A stretch of 33,555 nucleotides of DNA from a virus. The DNA lies in IMG/VR virus record IMGVR_UViG_3300033156_000563, positions 1-33,555 of that record; one strand, given 5' to 3'. Below the pieces are notes generated by a model. That model was given only the letters and a program-made list of their open reading frames with translations, was not told where the DNA came from and ran no database searches. Positions 8,942-30,368 of this stretch are shown in pieces; position 1 is the first letter of the stretch; each line of letters begins with the position of its first letter. A program made the position numbers and the translations under genes.

Positions 8942-11170
8942 TCATCGTCTCCCCCTGTATTCCCTGCTCCTCATGCGAATCTCACGGCCCAGGTACTCGA
9001 TCTCTTCCGGTTCTGGCGCTGGCTCGTCGTCAGTATCAGACTCGAATTGGTCCCGCACAGAGTTGTACACGATGTCGTTCAGCAACAGGAATGCGGACAC
9101 AAAGTCCTGCGGCGCCTTCTTGTCCATCACCATCTTGAAGTCAGTCATCTCGTCGGCGAACATGGCGCAGTCAGGGCACCACCACATATCGGCCCTAACC
9201 GTCCTCTGCGCCTGCACAATGAGGCGGGCCAGGTTGTGGCTGAGGCTAACGGGCACCAGATACAGGTCGTCTTTCCAGACCACATAGTGGGTATCTTTCT
9301 GCGTCCCGCTGGCCTCCATGCGGAACCCCGACTCAATCATCGGATACCTGCTCAGGACATCCTGGGCTGCCGCGATCCAGGGGTCGGGTGTGCCGTGCGC
9401 CCCTGGCATGTTGCCGGTCTGGATGTAGACGATCTCGAAAGGCGGCCCCTTGTCAATCCGGCACCCCAACAACACCCATTTGTTCCTGCGTGGGATGATC
9501 CCCGATCCGGGGTCCAGGGCAAAGGCGTACACAGCATCCGCCTCCGGCGGCTTCTCGTAATGGTACACGCCCAACATCTCATGCGTCTCCCACACCCAAC
9601 CCCCCTTGCCCTCAACCACGTTCCTGACCGCGACCTCGGTCAGGTCGCCGTCAAAGAAGGTATCCAGGTAAGGGAACACATCACCCTGCATGTGGACCTC
9701 TTTGGCGTCAATCTCCAATTCCGCTTCCTCTGGCCGGTCCCGGAATTGCGCCTCTTGCAACCTGATCTGGTCTTTCGACAGGTACAGATTGTTCCTCGCT
9801 GACCACTGCATGCTGTACCGCTCCCCAGGATGCTTGTAGCCCCACTTCAGGCGGTTCCACCACACGCGCCCCGTCCTGGGCGGGTTCCCAATGATGGTCA
9901 GGGTGGTGAATTTGGATACCCCCGATTCCTCCACCCACTCCTCCAGTTTGCGACGCAGTTTCTCACGCTTGGTCATGTCGTAGCAGGTTTCGACCTCAAA
10001 GATGCGATCCGCATACTCCTCCGAGAGCACAGGGTCCATGTTCAGGATTGCCCGGTTCGGCCCCCGCAAACGGCCGCTCAACGGCCCAATGTACCAGTCA
10101 GTCGAAAAAGCCCGCATAGCCTCGTCGGCTACGGCAAAGGCAAAGGTGCCACCGCGCAAGAGCTCCACAGGGTTGCTGCCTATGGAGCGAAAACTCATGC
10201 GCCCACCAGGATCATACTCGTCCCACTTCCGCAGGTTGATCTCCGGCTTCTGCCCCCTGACCGAACGCTCCACAAAAATCTCGTTGAAGAGCCCCTGCTC
10301 CCCCCATGACAGGATCAGGTCATGTCCCAGCGTCGCCTGCTCCAGCGAGGGCGCCGTCCACAACAAGTCGTGCCCCGGCCACAAGGCCACCTTCACGGCA
10401 TGAGAGATCGCCGCGGCCTCGGTGTTGTGGACCACTATGCCATTCGCAAGAAAGGTGTGGGTATTGGCAACGGTCAGATCGTAGGTCCTTTCCCTACCTG
10501 TCTGCTCCACGAGGACCACGTGTTCAAGGTCCCCATGGGGACCCGCAAGCACGACAACCAGATCCCCCGCCCGCAACAACCCAGCTTCTACCCAGCCACC
10601 AGGCGTAAGCAGCGGATGATCGTCTGAACACCTAAGCTCCATCCCGTTCCTGAGCCTAACACGCACGATTCGCTTCTCGGGCTGCTCACTTGCCGCAAGG
10701 ACATCCTCGATGCCCACCTTGAGTGTGCGCGGGTGCACGGTCACTACCCGCTGCCCAACTCTGACCGTCTCAATGGGCACCCTGGACCCGTCCGCCATGG
10801 TAATGAGCGTGCCAGCAGGCAGACATTTCCCGGACCCTCCCCCGCCCATGATCTGCCGGTCCCTGATGGGACAGTAGTGCAACTCCGCCTGATACAACTG
10901 CAACCGGTACTTGAACAACACCCACGTCAACTGATTGACTACCGGAACCCCATTCTCATCCCTCGGAATATGCTCCGGCCACTCATCCCCATAAACCTCA
11001 TACCCATACCGGCAAAACTCCTCCGCCTCCTTCACCCGCAAGACCAACTGCCAAAACTTCTCCACCCGCTCCAATGCGCCGCCATCCCCAACCCCCAAAG
11101 CCCGGTCCAGGTACATCAACCTATCATTATTTCGACTGAATACTTCCAACAATATGTCCTTGACATACAT
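8942..11170 (-). CDS. terL: terminase large subunit with in-frame mini-intein
   Basis: This 742-residue precursor is the packaging motor ATPase and nuclease. The Walker A loop GGGGSGK sits immediately before the intein, and the residue after it is Thr, so splicing yields GGGGSGKT. After the intein come ALWPGHDLLWTAP, a Walker B-like FAFAVADEA (acidic pair D-E), and FALDPGSG with further C-terminal acidic motifs that fit an RNase H-like nuclease. The spliced product would be about 608 residues, usual for TerL. Start: ATG at 11170 rather than GTG at 11188, because the promoter at 11179-11208 covers the latter. The mRNA would then be almost leaderless. The protein works with the small terminase and portal. 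Confidence 0.85.
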   Translation of the reverse strand: MYVKDILLEVFSRNNDRLMYLDRALGVGDGGALERVEKFWQLVLRVKEAEEFCRYGYEVYGDEWPEHIPRDENGVPVVNQLTWVLFKYRLQLYQAELHYCPIRDRQIMGGGGSGKCLPAGTLITMADGSRVPIETVRVGQRVVTVHPRTLKVGIEDVLAASEQPEKRIVRVRLRNGMELRCSDDHPLLTPGGWVEAGLLRAGDLVVVLAGPHGDLEHVVLVEQTGRERTYDLTVANTHTFLANGIVVHNTEAAAISHAVKVALWPGHDLLWTAPSLEQATLGHDLILSWGEQGLFNEIFVERSVRGQKPEINLRKWDEYDPGGRMSFRSIGSNPVELLRGGTFAFAVADEAMRAFSTDWYIGPLSGRLRGPNRAILNMDPVLSEEYADRIFEVETCYDMTKREKLRRKLEEWVEESGVSKFTTLTIIGNPPRTGRVWWNRLKWGYKHPGERYSMQWSARNNLYLSKDQIRLQEAQFRDRPEEAELEIDAKEVHMQGDVFPYLDTFFDGDLTEVAVRNVVEGKGGWVWETHEMLGVYHYEKPPEADAVYAFALDPGSGIIPRRNKWVLLGCRIDKGPPFEIVYIQTGNMPGAHGTPDPWIAAAQDVLSRYPMIESGFRMEASGTQKDTHYVVWKDDLYLVPVSLSHNLARLIVQAQRTVRADMWWCPDCAMFADEMTDFKMVMDKKAPQDFVSAFLLLNDIVYNSVRDQFESDTDDEPAPEPEEIEYLGREIRMRSREYRGRR
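10424..10825 (-). other. mini-intein in the TerL Walker A loop (134 residues)
   Basis: Precursor residues 116-255 by the ATG at 11170 (the intein itself is 116-249) begin with Cys (CLPAGTLITM) and end with His-Asn (NGIVVHN), followed by Thr. The block with LRCSDDHPLLTPGGW matches the TxxH-like motif of the Hint fold (here S-D-D-H), and TYDLTVANTHTFLANGIVVHN is the C-terminal splicing block. The first Cys, the penultimate His and the final Asn are the residues expected for class 1 splicing, with Thr as +1. The length leaves no room for a homing endonuclease. The intein interrupts the nucleotide-binding loop, so no unspliced precursor could pack DNA. Confidence 0.9.
10528..10543. repeat. 16-bp palindrome copy 3, inside the mini-intein
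   Basis: An exact GGTCCCCATGGGGACC, translated as G-P-H-G-D (on the minus strand) within AGPHGDLEHV. It is the only copy that lies wholly inside a protein domain of known fold. The spot between the Hint blocks is where a homing endonuclease is normally inserted. Confidence 0.9.
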
Positions 11171-11178
11171 ACACCCCA

Positions 11179-11208
11179 ATTCTATCACACACCAACTGCA
11201 ACTGTCAA
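11179..11208 (-). promoter_or_regulatory. sigma70-type promoter for large terminase (TTGACA-N18-TAGAAT)
   Basis: On the minus strand TTGACA (11208-11203) is followed after 18 bases by TAGAAT (11184-11179). Transcription would begin around 11172, one to three bases before the ATG at 11170. This supports ATG over the GTG at 11188 and indicates a leaderless or near-leaderless message. Confidence 0.6.
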
Positions 11209-15075: not shown

Positions 15076-16277
15076 CGTATTTCATTCCTGAGCCCGAGAT
15101 CGCCATGAAGGGGGAAGCGATGCGGGTTGAGACTCCCCGCCTGGGGTTCAGTCTGTACTTGAACCCAAAGCTCGGCACGGTCCAATTGTATCATGACACA
15201 AGCATCTCAATAATGGATTATGGCGCCATTGTGGCAAGGATCGTGAAGGGGATCGTACCTTCCCATACTCCCTGGATGATACCACGAAGACTCAGGCACT
15301 ACAAGCATGACGTCTACACCAAAGTTGTGGGCAAGAAGCTCTTGCCGTTCTACCGAAAGTGGCGAGAGACCTTGCCCGCTGACCTGGAGCGAGTCCACAA
15401 GGCCCTGTACTCGGTCAGAGGTAAGTGGCCTTCAGCAACGGCAGTCCGGGCCGCGCTTGCCTTGAGGTACCCCAACGACCTGTTTCAGATTCGAGCTTGC
15501 AGACTGGCCTGCGCTGAGGCTGGCAGGCATGTCGCATTAACACAAGCACAGGACTGGAATTGGATGGACGCCTACGAGCCTGTTGGCAAGGTGGCCCGCA
15601 GGGCATTGTACAGGGTCCCGGGCGGTGTCTGGTACACCGAGGCCAGGGACGTGATTCAGTATATCACTCAGGTTCCATTCCCTCACCGCCGCCGCTGGAT
15701 CTTGCTTGCCCTAGCCGGGCCGGATGCGGTTCCGGTTGTGGAGCGATCATCCGATGCCCAGATCAACAAGGGATTCAGGATACTGGCCCGGCACCTCCAG
15801 TTAGAAGGGCAGACCCGCAAACATTTCGCTATCCGTCAGGCATGGCGTTTCATGCTTGACGCTCCACCGCCGGAAAGCCCTCAAGCTACCGTTGTTCGCT
15901 ACGCCCAGCACGCTATCCGGTGGCACGCGGAAGCACGATGGCGGCGGATCGAGCCTGGAAACAGGCACTTCCCAACTCTCCAAATCCAGCCGCCGGATGG
16001 ATTTCGGTACATAGACAATAGCGATGACCTCGTAGAAGAAGGGCTAAGGATGCACCACTGCGTCGGCGTCTACAGCGGCAGGGCCGCGTCCGGCAAGTCC
16101 TTCATCTTCAACTACCGGGATGCCGTTACATTGGAGGTCAGTCCAGAGGGAGAGGTCATCCAGGCCTACGGCCCCTACAACTCCCGCAATGACCTGGTCT
16201 TGGAAGCCCAATATCTCCTGCAACAGTGGTGCGACGAGAAGTGGCCTGACGCCATTGGGCGGGTATCAGCGTCCTGA
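15069..16277 (+). CDS. PcfJ-like domain protein
   Basis: This 402-residue protein starts at ATG 15069 (GGAGGGGAAG upstream; the in-frame ATG at 15057 is less likely). The C-terminal third holds NSDDLVEEGLRMHHCVGVYS, then GKSFIFNYRDAVTLEVSPEG and EVIQAYGPYNSRND. The pattern L-x-x-E-G-x-x-M-x-H-C-V, followed by a T-L-E-V strand and a Q-x-x-G-x-x-N turn, is that of PcfJ-type proteins first named from conjugative plasmids. The biochemical function of that family is not established. It ends in a 36-base near-palindrome. It may act early with SSB in DNA replication. Confidence 0.7.
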   Translation: MSTYFIPEPEIAMKGEAMRVETPRLGFSLYLNPKLGTVQLYHDTSISIMDYGAIVARIVKGIVPSHTPWMIPRRLRHYKHDVYTKVVGKKLLPFYRKWRETLPADLERVHKALYSVRGKWPSATAVRAALALRYPNDLFQIRACRLACAEAGRHVALTQAQDWNWMDAYEPVGKVARRALYRVPGGVWYTEARDVIQYITQVPFPHRRRWILLALAGPDAVPVVERSSDAQINKGFRILARHLQLEGQTRKHFAIRQAWRFMLDAPPPESPQATVVRYAQHAIRWHAEARWRRIEPGNRHFPTLQIQPPDGFRYIDNSDDLVEEGLRMHHCVGVYSGRAASGKSFIFNYRDAVTLEVSPEGEVIQAYGPYNSRNDLVLEAQYLLQQWCDEKWPDAIGRVSAS

Positions 16278-16289
16278 TACCCGCCCAAT
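16254..16289. repeat. perfect 16-bp hairpin covering a gene end
   Basis: Bases 16254-16269 pair completely with 16274-16289 around a 4-base loop (CGTC). The stop codon of the PcfJ-like gene lies inside. No T-run follows, and a strong AAAGGAGGTG starts two bases after it. This could stop transcription or shield the message. Confidence 0.85.
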
Positions 16290-16345
16290 GAAAGGAGGTG
16301 ATGAGCTAGAGGCATTGTAGCACAGACGTTCGTGTCTGTCAACCA

Positions 16346-21898: not shown

Positions 21899-24800
21899 GT
21901 GCAGGAAGACTTTGATGCTGCTTTCAGTGTCAGCGGCTTCAAGGCGGCAGTGTTCAAGCCGCAGTTCGGCAACGCGCACCAGCAATACTTCACCCCGAAA
22001 TGGCTGGCTGAAGCCATGTGCCAGATCGCCGAACATGCCTTCCACAGCGAGCCACAGGGGCAGCATGGGCATGTCACCCTGAATGTCCTTGACCCCACTG
22101 CTGGCTCTGGACGACTGCTGGTGCCCTTCAAGAAGAACGGGCATCGCGTGATCGGCATCGAGCTTGACGAGCGCCTTGCCCGTGTCGCTACCAGGGCGCT
22201 GGGGAAGAAGGCGGTGCGTCGGGGCGACATCATGGTCTACGCCCCCCTCATCTCCAGCAAAAGCTGGCAGGTGGTTGTCACCAACCCGCCTTTCGGCCTG
22301 TGGTGGCCGACCACAAACGTGCACCGTCGCCGGTACCAGCTTGCCACTGGCGAGAACGTGGAGAGCCAGCACTTCATCCTGAACCTGGCCCATGACGTGC
22401 TCAACTACAACAATGGGCTCTTGCTTGGCATCTTCTCCGGCAAGTTCTTTGACAAGAACCCCAAGGCCCGCCAGTTCCTGGGCAAGAATTTCCAGATCAT
22501 CGCTCTCCTGACTCTGCCCAAGCCGTTCAAGGACGAGTACGGCATCGACGTGGACGCCGCCTTCGTGGTGGCCACCGGGGACAGCAGCTATACCTCAAAG
22601 AGAGAGATTCCCCTGGAGGGTGTCTTTGAGGGTGATGGGCCGATGCTTGTCAGGCAGGTCTGTGACGCTTTTGACCAGGTTCGCACAATGAACCCGAGCT
22701 ATACTTCTTCCTACATCTCTTACCTCGCGACGCCCTATCTCCGTGGCAATCCAGACGTCCCCAACCTGGACATGGCGGTGGACGTGGGACCGATGACCCT
22801 GCACCTCAAACTGACCGCCCGGGGGATAAGCCCTCAGAACAATTGGGCTTCCATCTGGCTCAAGTTCTACAACTCCCTGCCGGTCCAAGACTATGACATC
22901 GCCCAGGGCACCTACGCCCCACTGGGCGAGGCTCGGGGTTCCTTGCCCAACATCCTGATCAACGGTGTGGAGACCACCCGCCGTCGCCTGACCGAGCTCG
23001 GCTTCGAGGTCACACTGACGGACCACGACGCCCAACAGATCGAGCTCCGCGCACGGCGCTACGAGCGGGACCGGCTGCCGGTTCGGGAATTGGAACCGAT
23101 GGAGTACCTGGCCTACTATGAGGACGGCCCCATCACCGCCAGGGCCACCGTCAGATTGCCGGACGGCACGCTGATCCCAGAGGGCACCACCTACGAGCTA
23201 CGGAGCCGCTGGTTTCGGCAGGAAGAACAGGCCGGCGCGGAGGAAGAAAAGGGCAAGGGATCAAAGAGGTACGTTCAGCGCACCTACGTGGACCGGGGTT
23301 ACCTGGTGCTGCGCTTCACACCAGGAATCGGCCTGCCTCCGTTTACCGTCAGCGAGGTCGAGCCCCAGAAGGTCAAGGCTGTGGTAGATGCCTTTGGCTT
23401 GCCCGAGGTCAAGACCGTAGACGACACGCCAGACCTGATTGCTTGGAAGAATCGATTGGTCACATTTATGGACCAGCACCAGGAGGCCGCTGGCGGTCGC
23501 CGCTTGTATCCCATCCAGGCCCTGGACGTGGCCCGCATGGCCACCAAGTCTTCCGTTGCCCTGTTGTACGAAATGGGAGGCGGCAAGACAGCGACCATCG
23601 CTCACTGGGCGACGATGCGCAGTTACCGCGACGTGCTGATCGTCACCCCGGCCTCGGTGGTGTCTGGCATCATCGAGGACCTGAACAACTGGGGATTCCC
23701 GGCCCGGCGTCTTGACCACAAGCTGGTCTCCAATCTGAAGGCTCGCAAGCGCCAGCACCGGCTCGCGCGTGAACGGGTGAAGGCTGCGGCCCAGGCTCGG
23801 AGTGAGGAACAGAAGAACATCGTACATTATGAAAAGTGTCGTGTTGACACTGAGAAGAAGCTGGCCCGCAAGAAGCGGCACCTACGGAATCTGCGGGCCA
23901 TCCAGGCCAAGGGCAAGGGACGACCGGAAATCCAGAAGGAGATCGACGAGACGGCTTTCCTGGTTTCGGAACTCACCGACCAGCTTGCTGACATCTATGA
24001 TGCCCTGGGCGATGTCTATGAGCCCCCCCAGGAAACGCCCAACTTCTACGTCACCAGTTATCAGGACCTGAGCCTGGGCGACCACCTGGGCATCTTTGAC
24101 CCCTGGGACCACGACCACTTTGACCGCCAGGGCAACTACCTGGGCACGGTCAGTGATCTGCGGGGAGCCAGGTGCACGTGCGGTTCCCCACGCAAGAAGG
24201 CACTCCCTGTGTGTCCCAAATGCGGCACTCCGTGGCGCGGGGAGAACAGCGGCGGTGGCCGCGTCTGCCGAAAGTGCGGCTACGTGGCCTGGACCATGGG
24301 TAAGGCGCCGGTCCACATACTGCCAGAAATGAGTAAGGACGCGCCGCGCAAGCAGCAGATCGAGACACGCAAGAGGCGCATCGAGATTCTGAAACAGCGT
24401 CGCACGGCACTCACCGATGAGGGCCTGTCCACTCCGCGCCAGTCACCCCTTGCTCCCAGGATCAGGGCGCTATTCTCCTGCGTCATCCTGGACGAGGGCC
24501 AAGACGCCAAGTCCAAACTCAGCCTGCGGGGCGCGGCGGCCCGGAGCCTGCGGGCCAGGGGCCGCGCCATCCTGACCGGCACCTGGATGAAGGGCTATGT
24601 CCATGACCTGTTCTGGACCGCTGGTTGGCTGCTCGGTTTCGGCTCTCCCCTGTGGCCCTTCCCCTACAGGGGCGGCTCGGCCCGCTTCCTCAAGCAGTTT
24701 GGGACCTACGAGTATGTCACCAAAGAGTTTGCCAACAGTCTTGAGGTGGGCAAGCGCAAGCTGATCCCCTCCGTCTCCAACCTGAACCGCCTCTGGAAAC

Positions 24801-25939
24801 TGCTGTCGCCGGTCTCCATCCGTCGCCTGAAAGAGGACTTTTTGGAGGACCTGCCGCCCAAGCACCGGCACATCCAGTGGCTTGAGATCACCGGACAACA
24901 TGCCGTGCTGGCGAACCGCGTGACCGAGATGATGAAGGAGGTGCTCACCGCCGAGATGCGCAAGGCTGACCCCAATATGGGCGCCATCAGCGCCGCCCTG
25001 TGGTGGGGCCGCTACGTCGCCTCCTGCCCCAACGAGTACGGCGCCCTGCACTTTGCCGGCGCCTGGGGCTTCAAGGTGAACGTTGACGAGATCTCGCCGG
25101 GAAGGGCCAAGGCTATCCTGGCACAAATGCGGATGCAGAACGCCTACATCCTGCCCCGCCCGGGCCACAGGGCGGGCTACAACTTCAACAAGGTGCAGGA
25201 GACGCTCAAGCTGGTCCAGCAGATCAAGGCCAAGGGTGAGAAGGTCATCGTCTTCACCAGCCTGCGGGGCCTGTACCGCACGCTGGAGGCTGCCTTCAAG
25301 GATTTCGCCATCCCCTTCGTGGGTATGGATGGTGTGCCCACCCGGCGGCGCAACGACGTGGTGCGCCAGTTTGAGGCCGGCGACGCGACCGTTCTCCTAG
25401 CCGGGACCGGCACGCTGAACCGGGGCGTCACCGTCAACGGTGCGAACAACATCATCATCCTCAACCTGGAATGGAGCCCCGAGACAACTCTACAGGCCGA
25501 GGACCGCTGCCACCGGCCGGGGCAGACCAAAGAGGTTCACGTCTACTACCTGCTATCGCAGAACAGTGTGGACGAGCAGATGTGGGAACTGGTGAGCCAG
25601 AAGTGGTCGGCCCAGCAGGCGGTCCAGGACCGGAAGGCGGAGCACAAGTCGGTCGAGGCCATCCTGGCTGATGCGGCGCTGGCTAACGCGCAACTGGCCG
25701 TCGCCAAGGCCGTTCTGGCCGACTTGACAGCACCCAGGCCAGAGAAGGAACCAGAGCCCGCGACTCCCACTGTCGAAGGCGCCACTTCCTGGTTGGAGAT
25801 CAGCAAGGCCCATGTGCAACGCAGCCAGGCCAGGAAGAAGAACAAGGCTCCCGTTGTCTTCTACAGGGACCTGGGCAAGACGGTCAAGATTTCCTCTATG
25901 GAACCGGTCCAGCTAGCGATGTTCGAAGTTACGACTTGA
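21899..25939 (+). CDS. N6-adenine methyltransferase fused to SNF2-like helicase
   Basis: This 1346-residue protein starts with GTG 21899 after AAAGGAGGAGACA. QYFTP at 29-33, DPTAGSG at 65-71 and NPPF at 129-132 form an adenine-N6 methyltransferase domain. A middle part of about 300 residues is unassigned. EMGGGKT (558-564, Walker A), DEGQ (865-868), LTGTW (892-896) and the late block FTSLRGLYRTLEA to QAEDRCHRPGQ (1199-1209) are SF2 helicase motifs of SNF2 type. A zinc ribbon with repeated CxxC lies near 759-800. Mobile-element proteins of this pairing, such as phage P1 DarB-like proteins, act against host restriction; that role is inferred here. A promoter sits at its end. Confidence 0.85.
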   Translation: MQEDFDAAFSVSGFKAAVFKPQFGNAHQQYFTPKWLAEAMCQIAEHAFHSEPQGQHGHVTLNVLDPTAGSGRLLVPFKKNGHRVIGIELDERLARVATRALGKKAVRRGDIMVYAPLISSKSWQVVVTNPPFGLWWPTTNVHRRRYQLATGENVESQHFILNLAHDVLNYNNGLLLGIFSGKFFDKNPKARQFLGKNFQIIALLTLPKPFKDEYGIDVDAAFVVATGDSSYTSKREIPLEGVFEGDGPMLVRQVCDAFDQVRTMNPSYTSSYISYLATPYLRGNPDVPNLDMAVDVGPMTLHLKLTARGISPQNNWASIWLKFYNSLPVQDYDIAQGTYAPLGEARGSLPNILINGVETTRRRLTELGFEVTLTDHDAQQIELRARRYERDRLPVRELEPMEYLAYYEDGPITARATVRLPDGTLIPEGTTYELRSRWFRQEEQAGAEEEKGKGSKRYVQRTYVDRGYLVLRFTPGIGLPPFTVSEVEPQKVKAVVDAFGLPEVKTVDDTPDLIAWKNRLVTFMDQHQEAAGGRRLYPIQALDVARMATKSSVALLYEMGGGKTATIAHWATMRSYRDVLIVTPASVVSGIIEDLNNWGFPARRLDHKLVSNLKARKRQHRLARERVKAAAQARSEEQKNIVHYEKCRVDTEKKLARKKRHLRNLRAIQAKGKGRPEIQKEIDETAFLVSELTDQLADIYDALGDVYEPPQETPNFYVTSYQDLSLGDHLGIFDPWDHDHFDRQGNYLGTVSDLRGARCTCGSPRKKALPVCPKCGTPWRGENSGGGRVCRKCGYVAWTMGKAPVHILPEMSKDAPRKQQIETRKRRIEILKQRRTALTDEGLSTPRQSPLAPRIRALFSCVILDEGQDAKSKLSLRGAAARSLRARGRAILTGTWMKGYVHDLFWTAGWLLGFGSPLWPFPYRGGSARFLKQFGTYEYVTKEFANSLEVGKRKLIPSVSNLNRLWKLLSPVSIRRLKEDFLEDLPPKHRHIQWLEITGQHAVLANRVTEMMKEVLTAEMRKADPNMGAISAALWWGRYVASCPNEYGALHFAGAWGFKVNVDEISPGRAKAILAQMRMQNAYILPRPGHRAGYNFNKVQETLKLVQQIKAKGEKVIVFTSLRGLYRTLEAAFKDFAIPFVGMDGVPTRRRNDVVRQFEAGDATVLLAGTGTLNRGVTVNGANNIIILNLEWSPETTLQAEDRCHRPGQTKEVHVYYLLSQNSVDEQMWELVSQKWSAQQAVQDRKAEHKSVEAILADAALANAQLAVAKAVLADLTAPRPEKEPEPATPTVEGATSWLEISKAHVQRSQARKKNKAPVVFYRDLGKTVKISSMEPVQLAMFEVTT

Positions 25940-26732: not shown

Positions 26733-27925
26733 TCATCGGCCAGCCGCTCTCTGTTTTCCGGTACGATCCTGGAATCCAGCATCTGGACACAGCAGAGGTC
26801 GGCGTCAAGCAGGTCCTGGCCTATGGCATCACAGCCTTGTTGCAGGACGAATCCTGCGCTGACCTAATCGGCTTGCTTCCAGAACCCAATGGGCAGGAAC
26901 AGCCCTGGGAATACGCGGACCGTGCGCACACACACCTTCTCGGCGCCCTGGACGAGAAAGATCGCCGCAAGATTCGGGCGGCCATCATCGACCTGGGCAT
27001 GGACAGGGCAGACACGGCACGCCACTTGCTGTCTGTTGGGCGGCGGATCCTGGCCTGGCGGGTCTACACGGGTGACACCCTGGGAGGCAGTTGGATAGAC
27101 TCACCTTCCGGGGCCATGAGCTTTGACGAATGGTTGATGAACGTGAGCCGTAATGCCAGCAAGACTGAGCGAAGCAGGATTCGCACCGTCTGCAAGGCCC
27201 TGGCCTGGCTGATCGACAATGGGCGAGCGGACAAGTTACCAGAAGGCCCGGAGGAGGTGTTTCTCCCCGGCAACTGGCGCAGATGGTCCGCAGCCCTTGC
27301 CGCCGTCTGGCGCCGCAAGCTGACGCTGGACGAAGGCAACGAGAGCATACGTGACATTCTTGAGGCTGAGATTGATGACCTCCTGGAACGAGCCGGAGAC
27401 GAGACAATCACAGTCGCGGACTTTGAGGAGTACATCAAGCAGAACGGTGAGCCCCAGCTACCCCCCGTCATCATCGAGGAGGACCCCCAGGACCCTGATA
27501 CTGGTCTCTATCAGGGGACCATCACCTACGGCCCAGCCCAACGCTCGGCGCTGGTGAAGGATCAGCGCTTTGACGTTCGGCTAAGGGGCGAGACATACGG
27601 TGTGAGCAACCCGCGCATCGTCCAGTACCGCAAGGTCAGCCAGTATGTGTGCCGGAACTGTGGCGCAGCCACGGCCCAGAACAGTGACCACTGCCTGGCT
27701 TGCGGCGCATTTGACATGCTGGTCAGGTGGGATGCCTGGTCCGAGCGCGAATGGTCTGGATCAGAGTGGAGTGAGTGGCGGCACCTGGAAGAAGAACCTG
27801 AACGCGATGGGCACCTGATAAGCAGGCTGGCGGACGCCGACCTCGGAGTCGAGTACTGGCAATACGTAGATAATGGTCCCCATGGGGACCTCGAAGAGGA
27901 GGAAGAAAAAGATGGCACAGACTGA
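26693..27925 (+). CDS. early protein with C-terminal zinc ribbon, function unknown
   Basis: This 410-residue protein starts at GTG 26693 with GGAGGTGATGAA. The first 250 residues are helical (VSRNASKTERSRIRTVCKAL and so on). Near residue 318, YVCRNCGAATAQNSDHCLAC is a zinc ribbon. The end is very acidic (EEEEEKDGTD). No known family is recognised. It lies just before the initiator genes, and palindrome copy 10 lies in its 3' end. Confidence 0.5.
   Translation: MARKNGHKQEQALIIGQPLSVFRYDPGIQHLDTAEVGVKQVLAYGITALLQDESCADLIGLLPEPNGQEQPWEYADRAHTHLLGALDEKDRRKIRAAIIDLGMDRADTARHLLSVGRRILAWRVYTGDTLGGSWIDSPSGAMSFDEWLMNVSRNASKTERSRIRTVCKALAWLIDNGRADKLPEGPEEVFLPGNWRRWSAALAAVWRRKLTLDEGNESIRDILEAEIDDLLERAGDETITVADFEEYIKQNGEPQLPPVIIEEDPQDPDTGLYQGTITYGPAQRSALVKDQRFDVRLRGETYGVSNPRIVQYRKVSQYVCRNCGAATAQNSDHCLACGAFDMLVRWDAWSEREWSGSEWSEWRHLEEEPERDGHLISRLADADLGVEYWQYVDNGPHGDLEEEEEKDGTD
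27875..27890. repeat. 16-bp palindrome copy 10 (GGTCCCCATGGGGACC)
   Basis: An exact copy inside the end of the preceding gene (translated GPHGDL). It ends 21 bases before the ATG of the small winged-helix gene at 27912. Confidence 0.9.
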
Positions 27926-28190
27926 CAAGCTCATTCAGGCAGCGATGTTGGACCGGGCGCTGAGCGACAATGCATTTCGTACCTACCTCGTGTACCTCAT
28001 GCACGCTGACCCACAGGATGGCAAGTGTTACCTGTCTGGTGAGGAAGTTGCACATCTCGAGAACAGAACCGTAGGTACGATCTCCCACCACAATCGCGAG
28101 CTAGAGATCCTGGGATACATAAGGAGGGAACGGAGAATGGGCCTTCCGTCGGTAACAGAGATTTTGGACTATATGGGAGAGTCGAAATGA
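27912..28190 (+). CDS. stand-alone winged-helix paralog of the initiator
   Basis: This 92-residue protein starts at ATG 27912 (GAGGAGGAAGAAAAAG). Its core, LDRALSDNAFRTYLVYLMHA, then NRTVGTISHHNRELEILGYI, lines up with the N-terminal part of the initiator gene (LDDELSAEALRTLLVYTMFA and KKDVATITRHNQELERLGYI). It therefore appears to be a duplicated DNA-binding domain without the initiator's C-terminal half. It might bind the same origin sites and limit replication, or serve as a regulator. Confidence 0.65.
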   Translation: MAQTDKLIQAAMLDRALSDNAFRTYLVYLMHADPQDGKCYLSGEEVAHLENRTVGTISHHNRELEILGYIRRERRMGLPSVTEILDYMGESK

Positions 28191-28531: not shown

Positions 28532-29656
28532 GTGCACGACGTACACTTTGAAAACCCCGTCAAACAGCTTGGCTATGCCATGGTGTACCACGTAGCCACA
28601 CTGGACGACGAACTATCGGCTGAGGCGCTGCGGACCCTGCTCGTGTACACCATGTTCGCACAGCAGAAGAACGCCTGCTGGCCCAGCCGGAAGACTGTCG
28701 CCCAAATGCGCAAGAAGGATGTTGCCACTATCACGCGGCACAATCAGGAGCTCGAAAGGCTTGGATACATCAAGCGGCAGAAGAGATCAGGGACCTCATC
28801 GATAACGATCCTCACAGATTACGAATCATCGCCCCGCCTCGTGGAACTGGCCCGCCAGATCTTGCAAGAGCGCAATAATGCGCCCACCGACACTCCCCCA
28901 AAGCGCAAAAGTGCGCTTTCCAAAAGCGCAGATGTGCGCCCTGCAAAAGCGCACAAACGCGCCCCAGAAGAAGAACCAATAGAAGAAGAACCAATAGAAG
29001 AAAACAGCCAAGCGATTTCATCGCTTGGCGGGTTCCAGGAACTGGAGTATGTTGATCTCGATGCTGAGGAGAAGCCACCACCACGTAACAGTCTCGAAAA
29101 GCTACTCCAATTCAAGTTTGGGTTCAGAGACAAGCGCATGTCCAAAGGACAGGCCCGACGCCTGTTACAGCCTGTGTCCGTTGGTGATCCAGACGACCCA
29201 GGGGTTCTGAAGGAGTTGCCTGGCCCTGCCACCCTTTACGACAGCGACCCGCTTTTCAGGGAATATGTAGGCCGTGGGATCGAATGGGCCTTGGGAGACA
29301 ATTTTGCCAAGGCCATGAGCAATGCAGCGCGACGCAACGCCTGCATCGGATGGATTCGCAACTATGAGCGGCCGCGAAGCGGATGGTTGGCATGGAAGGA
29401 GGGGAGAAATGAAACAGGTAGGCGAAGAGCTAGAGGCCCTGCTGAAAGCAAACGAGAGGCTGATGCAACTCCGCGCAAGCATGACCGCTACGGCGAGCAA
29501 ATCAAACGGTGGCTCGAAAGAAAGGCCAACGAGCCACGACCCAAGAAACGGGAGCCGACCGACTGGGAAGAGCACGAAAGGCGCATCGAGCAATACCTCG
29601 CAGAGACCACCCCGGCCCAAATCCTGGGTGTGTCCAAGGTGCGGCCACGTTCGTGA
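28532..29656 (+). CDS. replication initiator protein, putative
   Basis: This 374-residue protein starts at GTG 28532 (GGAGACAAGCA). Residues about 20-105 form a winged-helix DNA-binding domain (KKDVATITRHNQELERLGYI). Residues about 114-165 are a charged, proline-rich linker encoded by the iteron and AT-rich region. The rest is helical, with a basic tail (EQIKRWLERKANEPRPKKRE). Initiators of the lambda O kind have this order and carry the origin inside their gene. The C-terminal 82 codons overlap the loader gene in another frame. It would bind the iterons and recruit the helicase loader. Confidence 0.65.
   Translation: MHDVHFENPVKQLGYAMVYHVATLDDELSAEALRTLLVYTMFAQQKNACWPSRKTVAQMRKKDVATITRHNQELERLGYIKRQKRSGTSSITILTDYESSPRLVELARQILQERNNAPTDTPPKRKSALSKSADVRPAKAHKRAPEEEPIEEEPIEENSQAISSLGGFQELEYVDLDAEEKPPPRNSLEKLLQFKFGFRDKRMSKGQARRLLQPVSVGDPDDPGVLKELPGPATLYDSDPLFREYVGRGIEWALGDNFAKAMSNAARRNACIGWIRNYERPRSGWLAWKEGRNETGRRRARGPAESKREADATPRKHDRYGEQIKRWLERKANEPRPKKREPTDWEEHERRIEQYLAETTPAQILGVSKVRPRS
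28870..29029. other. candidate replication origin inside the initiator gene
   Basis: Four copies of GCGCA-N4-TGCGC occur at 28870-28883, 28903-28916, 28926-28939 and 28949-28962 (the last ends CGCGC, one change). Their spacing is 33, 23 and 23 bases. Next come two exact 15-base AT-rich repeats (28967-28996, GAAGAAGAACCAATA) and a perfect 10-bp hairpin (29007-29029). Iterons, AT-rich unwinding region and hairpin within an initiator gene is the arrangement of the phage lambda origin. Confidence 0.75.
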
Positions 29657-30368
29657 GCCCCGATGGATTGAGTGGAAACAGGAGTGGTTCGTGTACGAGG
29701 GCGAGTGTGAGGAGTGTGAGGCAGTAAGGCTCGGCCAGCAATGGCTGGCCCAGTATCGGCAGACTGTTCTGGCTACCTATGGGCTCAACGAGGGTGAGTA
29801 CGCCCACATGGACCTGAATACCTACCAGCCGGACCCGAAGTATCCGAGCCAGGACGAGGCCAAGAATGCCATGTATGCCCTGGTTGACGAGTGGAAGGCT
29901 GGGAACTGGCGCGCGGGCATCCTGCTGTACAGCGACGACGTGGGCATCGGGAAAACGCACCTGGTCATCGGTGCGGCCCGCATCGGCGTCCAGTTGTACA
30001 CGCCCAGCAAACTCGGCGAGCGCATCCTCGCTGTCTGGGACATGCCGTCCTATGTTCGGGAGATCAAGAACAGCTATGACAAGGGCGGCACGGCGGAGAT
30101 TGAGGCCAGCACCATCGAGCCAGCCATCCTCATCATGGACGACCTGGGGGCCGAGCACGTCAAGACCGCCGAGTGGTATCACGGCCTGATGTACGACATC
30201 CTGAACGCCCGGTGGAAGGACCAGAAGGCGACCCTGGTCACGACCAATGTCAATCCTGCGGAGTTGCGGGATCGCATCGGCGACCGGGCATTCAGCAGGT
30301 TGATCTCGCTGACCGGCGAGCCCGTGGAACTGTGGGGCGATGACTACAGGGTGACGAAAGGAGGTTGA
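29409..30368 (+). CDS. DnaC-like helicase loader ATPase
   Basis: This 319-residue protein starts at ATG 29409 (AAGGAGGGGAGAA) and overlaps the initiator gene by 248 bases in another frame. Near residue 75, CPRCGHVRE and GECEECEA form a zinc site. DDVGIGKTHL (about 176-185) is the Walker A loop; ILIMDDLGAE (about 239-248) is Walker B; TLVTTNVNP follows as a sensor-type strand. This is the AAA+ helicase loader pattern of DnaC and DnaI. It would load the replicative helicase at the origin. No replicative helicase is visible in the window, so it probably uses the host's. Confidence 0.8.
   Translation: MKQVGEELEALLKANERLMQLRASMTATASKSNGGSKERPTSHDPRNGSRPTGKSTKGASSNTSQRPPRPKSWVCPRCGHVREPRWIEWKQEWFVYEGECEECEAVRLGQQWLAQYRQTVLATYGLNEGEYAHMDLNTYQPDPKYPSQDEAKNAMYALVDEWKAGNWRAGILLYSDDVGIGKTHLVIGAARIGVQLYTPSKLGERILAVWDMPSYVREIKNSYDKGGTAEIEASTIEPAILIMDDLGAEHVKTAEWYHGLMYDILNARWKDQKATLVTTNVNPAELRDRIGDRAFSRLISLTGEPVELWGDDYRVTKGG

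Follow-up and report, generated by a model that had tools for sequence, protein, structure and literature searches.

The locus examined here raises the question of where replication begins in the uncultured phage represented by IMG/VR record IMGVR_UViG_3300033156_000563, which was analyzed over its entire length of 33,555 bases (the window). Judging from the sequence, positions 28870 to 29029 are very probably the replication origin of this phage. The segment lies inside the gene for the replication initiator, in the part that encodes a linker, and the origin would be of the lambda (O-some) type. For lambda, it is textbook knowledge that the initiator gene contains the origin, and the evidence for such a layout comes from a few model phages. 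The phage studied here is uncultured and shows this layout with an iteron unlike that of lambda and a helicase loader that is DnaC-like.

Iterons and unstable DNA within the initiator gene

The initiator gene and the iterons within it are as follows.

28532..29656, plus strand: initiator gene, encoding a 374-amino-acid O-like replication initiator with an N-terminal winged helix (HTH_36); holds the candidate origin
28610..28771, plus strand: HTH_36-coding part of the initiator gene (residues 27 to 80; Pfam PF13730)
28870..28883, unstranded: iteron 1, GCGCAATAATGCGC
28903..28916, unstranded: iteron 2, GCGCAAAAGTGCGC
28926..28939, unstranded: iteron 3, GCGCAGATGTGCGC
28949..28962, unstranded: iteron 4, GCGCACAAACGCGC, one change from the consensus

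Four palindromes of the form GCGCA-N4-TGCGC lie inside the initiator gene with start-to-start spacings of 33, 23, and 23 bp, and an initial annotation of this DNA had given their coordinates and letters exactly, including the single change in the last. No copy of the consensus with up to one mismatch occurs elsewhere in the window. The count of single sites is not significant by itself (4 found versus 2.4 expected), whereas their clustering is. A detector that chains palindromes (5-bp half-sites, spacers of 3 to 7 bp, at least 8 of 10 positions matching, start-to-start distances of 16 to 45 bp) gave the array a score of 11. Dinucleotide shuffling of the initiator gene (1500 rounds) never gave more than 6, shuffling of the local region (3000 rounds) never more than 5, and synonymous-codon permutation with the protein preserved (1500 rounds) never more than 7; no other array in the window scored 7 or more. 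The iterons occupy gene frames 2, 2, 1, and 0, and because all three reading frames are used, the repeated and selected object is the DNA and not the peptide, in agreement with the earlier suggestion that selection may act on the DNA of this linker segment and not on the protein.

The iterons are followed directly by a segment of low stability and an inverted repeat.

28963..29006, plus strand: candidate DNA unwinding element, 64% AT, least stable 44 bp of the gene
28970..28984, plus strand: 15-base direct repeat 1, GAAGAACCAATAGAA, AACC core at 28974
28985..28999, plus strand: 15-base direct repeat 2, GAAGAACCAATAGAA, AACC core at 28989
29007..29029, unstranded: inverted repeat with a perfect 10-bp stem, GCCAAGCGAT-TTC-ATCGCTTGGC, a 3-base loop, and no T-run after it

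By nearest-neighbour energies, no 44-bp stretch of the gene is less stable than 28963 to 29006, which begins at the first base past iteron 4. The repeats had been called AT rich, which holds only in relative terms, with 64% AT in this segment and 44% in the gene. The two exact 15-base repeats and the perfect 10-bp hairpin after them are present as first annotated. The hairpin is unremarkable by itself, since several perfect hairpins of at least 9 bp occur in the window, and stems of at least 7 bp in relatives (15 of 81, versus 1 of 77 and 6 of 72 in controls) lend weak support to a hairpin as a general feature; it may be a lambda-like inverted repeat or incidental. The 15-base repeats contain a core, GAACCA, from a repeat family that is frequent in O-like origins (described below). 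This AACC element consists of two copies of GAACCAATA, 15 bp apart within the 15-base repeats, and matches the family consensus at 7 of 9 positions. Such a pair is near chance by itself, with seven in the window on both strands together, and it gains weight only from its position and its relatives. No AACC chain lies beside any other array in the window.

The encoded protein belongs to the O-like winged-helix families. Its match to PF13730 (HTH_36) scores 27.3 bits against a cut-off of 25, and it matches several PHROG replication-initiation and O-like families with E values of 1e-8 to 4e-5. The AlphaFold2 model of its winged helix has a mean predicted local distance difference test (pLDDT) score of 83, and structure comparison reveals a resemblance to the predicted O protein of phage Min27 and, less closely, to the solved Rep-DNA complex 5kbj. 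According to the initial annotation, neither the iteron nor the initiator is lambda-like by eye; the half-site indeed differs, but the initiator is lambda-like at the level of profile and fold. The next gene encodes the loader.

29409..30368, plus strand: DnaC-like helicase loader gene (phrog_50, E value of 2.6e-38), directly downstream of the initiator gene

The loader probably starts at 29409, behind a strong ribosome-binding site (GGAGGGGAGAA), and the two genes share 248 bp (29409 to 29656) in different frames.

In the mechanism that we propose, the winged-helix initiator would bind as dimers to the palindromic iterons and introduce a bend, upon which the adjacent AACC-repeat region (28963 to 29006), the least stable part of the gene, would melt. 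By analogy with plasmid Rep proteins, the AACC-repeat strand would probably be held single stranded by the initiator, and the DnaC-like loader from the adjoining gene would bring the replicative helicase to the bubble.

Arrays and AACC repeats in other initiator genes

The occurrence of such arrays was surveyed in winged-helix genes from Pseudomonadota, Bacillota, and Actinomycetota genomes (115 open reading frames [ORFs] after removal of duplicates); some thresholds of the survey were set during the analysis, and the sequences share phylogenetic kinship. Detector scores of at least 8 were obtained for 25 of the 115 winged-helix genes versus 5 of 250 control ORFs taken from these loci, and 21 of those 25 arrays have a regular spacing of 20 to 25 bp. 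The half-site differs in nearly every array (GCCGC, TGTTC, GGTTC, TTACC, CGCAG, GTGCA, GTGAC, TGACA, and others), and the 50 bases past the array are more AT rich than the gene in 20 of 21 cases. Palindromic arrays are a recurring feature of O-like initiator genes in the three phyla, and the half-site is almost always particular to the array.

A strand-specific repeat, GAACC[G/A]TCA, follows many arrays closely on their 3' side and recurs every 11 to 12 bp. In 30 array-bearing genes, the 64 bases at the 3' edge of the array contain 51 copies of AACC in total, compared with 13 in the 64 bases upstream and 11 further downstream, while its complement GGTT was found 5, 7, and 5 times in the same three zones. 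Among all 256 tetramers, AACC has the largest excess in winged-helix genes when chains of at least three copies at 9- to 17-bp spacing are considered (25 of 115 versus 2 of 250 controls). DNA of viral contigs was also searched with the pattern GAACCNTNA-N1-4-GAACCNTNA-N1-4-GAACC alone. Of the 97 ORFs that cover the matches listed, 81 resemble an O-like PHROG family and 78 have a hit to HTH_36; with a permuted pattern, 1 of 93 among the matches listed is O-like by a profile built in this analysis, and 89 of the 93 are coding repeats that stay in one frame. The number of AACC matches was rejected as evidence because the permuted control pattern also matches abundantly, and only the kind of gene is informative. 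In 78 nonredundant cases, the copies are spaced by 11 bp 103 times and by 12 bp 61 times, bearing in mind that the pattern itself forces a spacing of 10 to 13 bp and some consensus letters, which are not countable as findings. The copies span two or three reading frames in 69 of the 78 cases, and positions left free by the pattern are conserved too (G or A in 92%, C in 70%). A palindromic array (score of at least 7) occurs up to 180 bp upstream of the AACC repeats in 32 of 89 cases, compared with 0 of 248 control segments. When a profile was built from the ORFs found through AACC, with the window left out, the initiator was the sole matching ORF of the window (E value of 1.5e-8), which places it in the same broad family. 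The window falls outside the strict AACC-box class (at least three coding-strand copies of GAACC[G/A]TCA, spaced by 10 to 12 bp and located 3' to the iterons); its element is a relaxed variant resembling those of loci L065, L245, L255, and L343, which have AACCAAT-like forms.

When viral contigs were scanned for paired GCGCA-N4-TGCGC sites, many of the loci obtained were operator-like or coding repeats, but L065 was also among them. This locus contains an HTH_36 gene with three copies of the same iteron at 23 bp in frames 1, 0, and 2, followed by AACCAAT three times (AACCAATCTAATAAACCAATCTAATAAACCAATC), and its initiator has no BLAST-level similarity to that of the window. HTH_36-matching genes with related arrays and without AACC repeats were found at L052, L048, and L092. 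Pairs of GCGCA-N4-TGCGC with 23-bp spacing and a repressor-operator-like setting were observed in other phage contigs (L006, L015, L031, L054, L068, L070, L072, and L076), and unrelated DNA-binding proteins seem to use the same GCGCA half-site. Broad GCGC-array scans of viral contigs yielded mostly coding repeats of the pentapeptide kind, and a GCGCA-array scan of bacterial genomes yielded only microsatellite-like tandem arrays or arrays at unrelated places, with none in a winged-helix gene.

The proteins that read the two elements were considered separately. In a clade with a near-constant helix start (SER), the residues of the recognition helix partition with the half-site: an R after the conserved V/L goes with CGGCA or GGCAC, which are registers of one longer palindrome, the helix AIKWL goes with CCGCA, and AVQ[D/E]AIAWL goes with GGTGC. 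This partition holds in 18 of 18 sequences of those classes, many of which are closely related. Across all pairs, helix identity and site identity have a partial correlation of 0.245 once scaffold identity is taken into account, uncorrected for phylogeny. Since the recognition helix tracks the half-site in one clade, these sequence comparisons support the winged helix as the iteron reader. A link of the AACC repeats to one loader type was rejected, as their neighbours include DnaB-like helicases (30 of 105), P-like proteins (8), DnaC-like proteins (7), and others. Because AACC is not tied to one helicase-delivery gene, its reader is argued to be the initiator or a host factor.

A wider proposal, somewhat likelier to fail than to hold, is that phage winged-helix initiators of different phyla and loader types share a strand-specific unwinding code (GAACC[G/A]TCA every 11 to 12 bp, with an AACCAAT variant in the window) directly on the 3' side of iterons that are particular to each initiator. 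Read as single-stranded DNA by the initiator or by a conserved host factor, this code would be a phage counterpart of the DnaA-trio or of plasmid 13-mers, while a short recognition-helix code would set the half-site. If the code is indeed shared, sequence alone could suffice to locate the origins of many uncultured phages; if the AACC strand is recognized in single-stranded form, this would bear on how phage initiators open DNA and on the orientation of helicase loading. Three leads are directly testable: sequence-based origin finding in phages, a conserved AACC second element that goes with O-like initiators and not with one loader type, and the covariation of helix and half-site, which could become a specificity code for phage initiators. 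No description of the AACC repeat family or of the helix/half-site covariation was found in the open-access literature, and both may be known to specialists.

Competing explanations and other features of the contig

Several observations weigh against an origin at this array. Iteron 4 is imperfect, and the first interval (33 bp) departs from the 23-bp period; the AACC copies are only two, lie 15 bp apart, and deviate from the consensus. The cumulative GC skew has its minimum near 17.5 kb, away from the array, which is uninformative here because the skew follows gene orientation. Single-sequence scans with the initiator and the loader gave no useful relatives, and no close relative of the initiator was found that would allow a synonymous-site test. 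Just upstream of the initiator gene are two more small genes, at least one of which encodes a winged-helix protein, and one of these products could therefore be, or be part of, the protein that binds the iterons.

27873..28190, plus strand: winged-helix paralogue gene, encoding a winged helix only, 45 to 48% identical to the DNA-binding domain of the initiator

The paralogue could recognize these sites or similar ones and regulate replication, and it is a possible co-regulator of the origin. It also fits the explanation that survives best among the alternatives, which we nevertheless regard as unlikely, namely, that the palindromes are operators through which the initiator, the paralogue, or another regulator controls transcription or the expression of replication genes, with the origin elsewhere. 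The presence of GCGCA-N4-TGCGC pairs with 23-bp spacing at operator-like places in other phage contigs agrees with this, and self-regulation through binding to the same sites is common among initiators. However, the sites are found about 340 nt into the gene, and neither a promoter nor any other part of the window carries one; they abut the least stable DNA of the gene, their offsets match those of the lambda and P22 origins, and a pure operator reading does not predict AACC repeats.

Very unlikely is a decayed origin, in which a lambda-type layout was inherited and replication now starts at another site. The imperfect iteron, the irregular first spacing, the presence of only two AACC copies, and the skew minimum near 17.5 kb speak for decay, but three perfect dyads have been kept across three reading frames beside intact initiator and loader genes, the window holds no other array and no AACC chain beside one, and the skew tracks gene direction. 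A further idea, that the repeats simply reflect a protein linker of low complexity or with tandem duplication, can practically be dismissed: the encoded segment is a low-complexity linker (ERNNAPTDTPPKRKSALSKSADVRPAKAHKRAPEEEPIEEEPIEE) and both 15-base repeats are in one frame, but the iterons encode unrelated peptides in three frames, as they also do in three frames at L065, synonymous-codon shuffles never neared the array score, and the coding repeats matched by the permuted motif keep to one frame (89 of 93 among the matches listed). An origin of the lambda type is the preferred reading.

Other features were observed in the contig. A dispersed palindrome, (A)GGTCCCCATGGGGACC(T), occurs in about 11 copies across the contig, seven with a perfect 14-mer core, and these sites are candidate phage repressor operators or "stoperator"-like sites.

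3224, 6435, 10532, 13691, 13965, 14104, 16350, 19405, 26668, 27879, and 32288: copies of CCCATGGG

A terminase-like ORF on the minus strand (8942 to 11188) carries, by eye, an apparent compact intein at its Walker A motif (GGGGSGK-CLPAGT...VVHN-T). Positions 16253 to 16290 form a perfect 17-bp hairpin (CATTGGGCGGGTATCAG-CGTC-CTGATACCCGCCCAATG), and positions 21899 to 25939 encode a 1346-amino-acid fusion of an N6 DNA methyltransferase-like domain and a SNF2-type helicase. At the contig end (32899 to 33555), the apparent start of a large serine recombinase was recognized by eye, which suggests a temperate phage.

Comparison with known origins

The lactococcal phage Tuc2009 resembles the window in that its origin is annotated inside the initiator gene rep ("contains origin of replication"), where four AACC copies lie 11 bp apart (L478). 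Unlike the window initiator, the Tuc2009 protein is DnaD-like, and the detector found no clear palindromic array; in TP901-1 rep (L477), no AACC copies occur at the equivalent place. The origins of iteron plasmids such as RK2, whose Rep proteins are winged-helix proteins, likewise have replicon-specific repeated sites beside a direct-repeat unwinding element, but the iterons of the window are palindromes within the initiator gene. Winged-helix plasmid Rep binds one single strand of the unwinding-element repeats sequence specifically (PMC4081077), and binding of lambda O to single-stranded DNA has been reported, as cited in PMC7466680.

The origin in gene 18 of Salmonella phage P22 (NC_002371) has four palindromic iterons, the first of which opens the annotated rep_origin. 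The detector placed its four sites at offsets 352, 372, 396, and 419 of the gene, and the first base of the first site is the first base of the annotated rep_origin. P22 differs in its half-site (TTTAC), in its ACAAAAGACAATA repeats, and in having a DnaB-like helicase gene next instead of a loader gene.

The lambda origin lies in gene O (NC_001416), where the iterons bind O dimers and the adjoining 40-bp A+T-rich region opens (PMC5043065; PMC6022878). Working blind to the annotation, the detector recovered the four annotated lambda iterons at gene offsets 349, 369, 393, and 416. The offsets in the window, 338, 371, 394, and 417, are nearly those of lambda and P22, and the spacings of 33, 23, and 23 bp compare with 20, 24, and 23 bp in lambda. 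In both the window and lambda, four dyad iterons in mixed frames lie about 340 to 430 nt into the initiator gene, followed directly by about 40 bp of unstable DNA and then by an inverted repeat, with the loader gene next; the lambda-type order proposed in the initial annotation is therefore borne out. The differences are also clear. The half-site is GCGCA in the window and TCCCT(C) in lambda, the unstable region carries AACC in the former and ACAAAAGA-type repeats in the latter, and the loader is DnaC-like instead of P-like. The winged-helix domains are only distantly related, and the overlap of 248 bp between the initiator and loader genes far exceeds the few bases shared by lambda O and P. 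With its different half-site and DnaC-like loader, the locus lies outside the strict definition of the lambdoid O-P module, and the arrangement would work like that of lambda without being such a module. As read from its DNA, the arrangement adds a new member to the lambda type, set apart by its iteron, loader class, and unwinding-element repeat.
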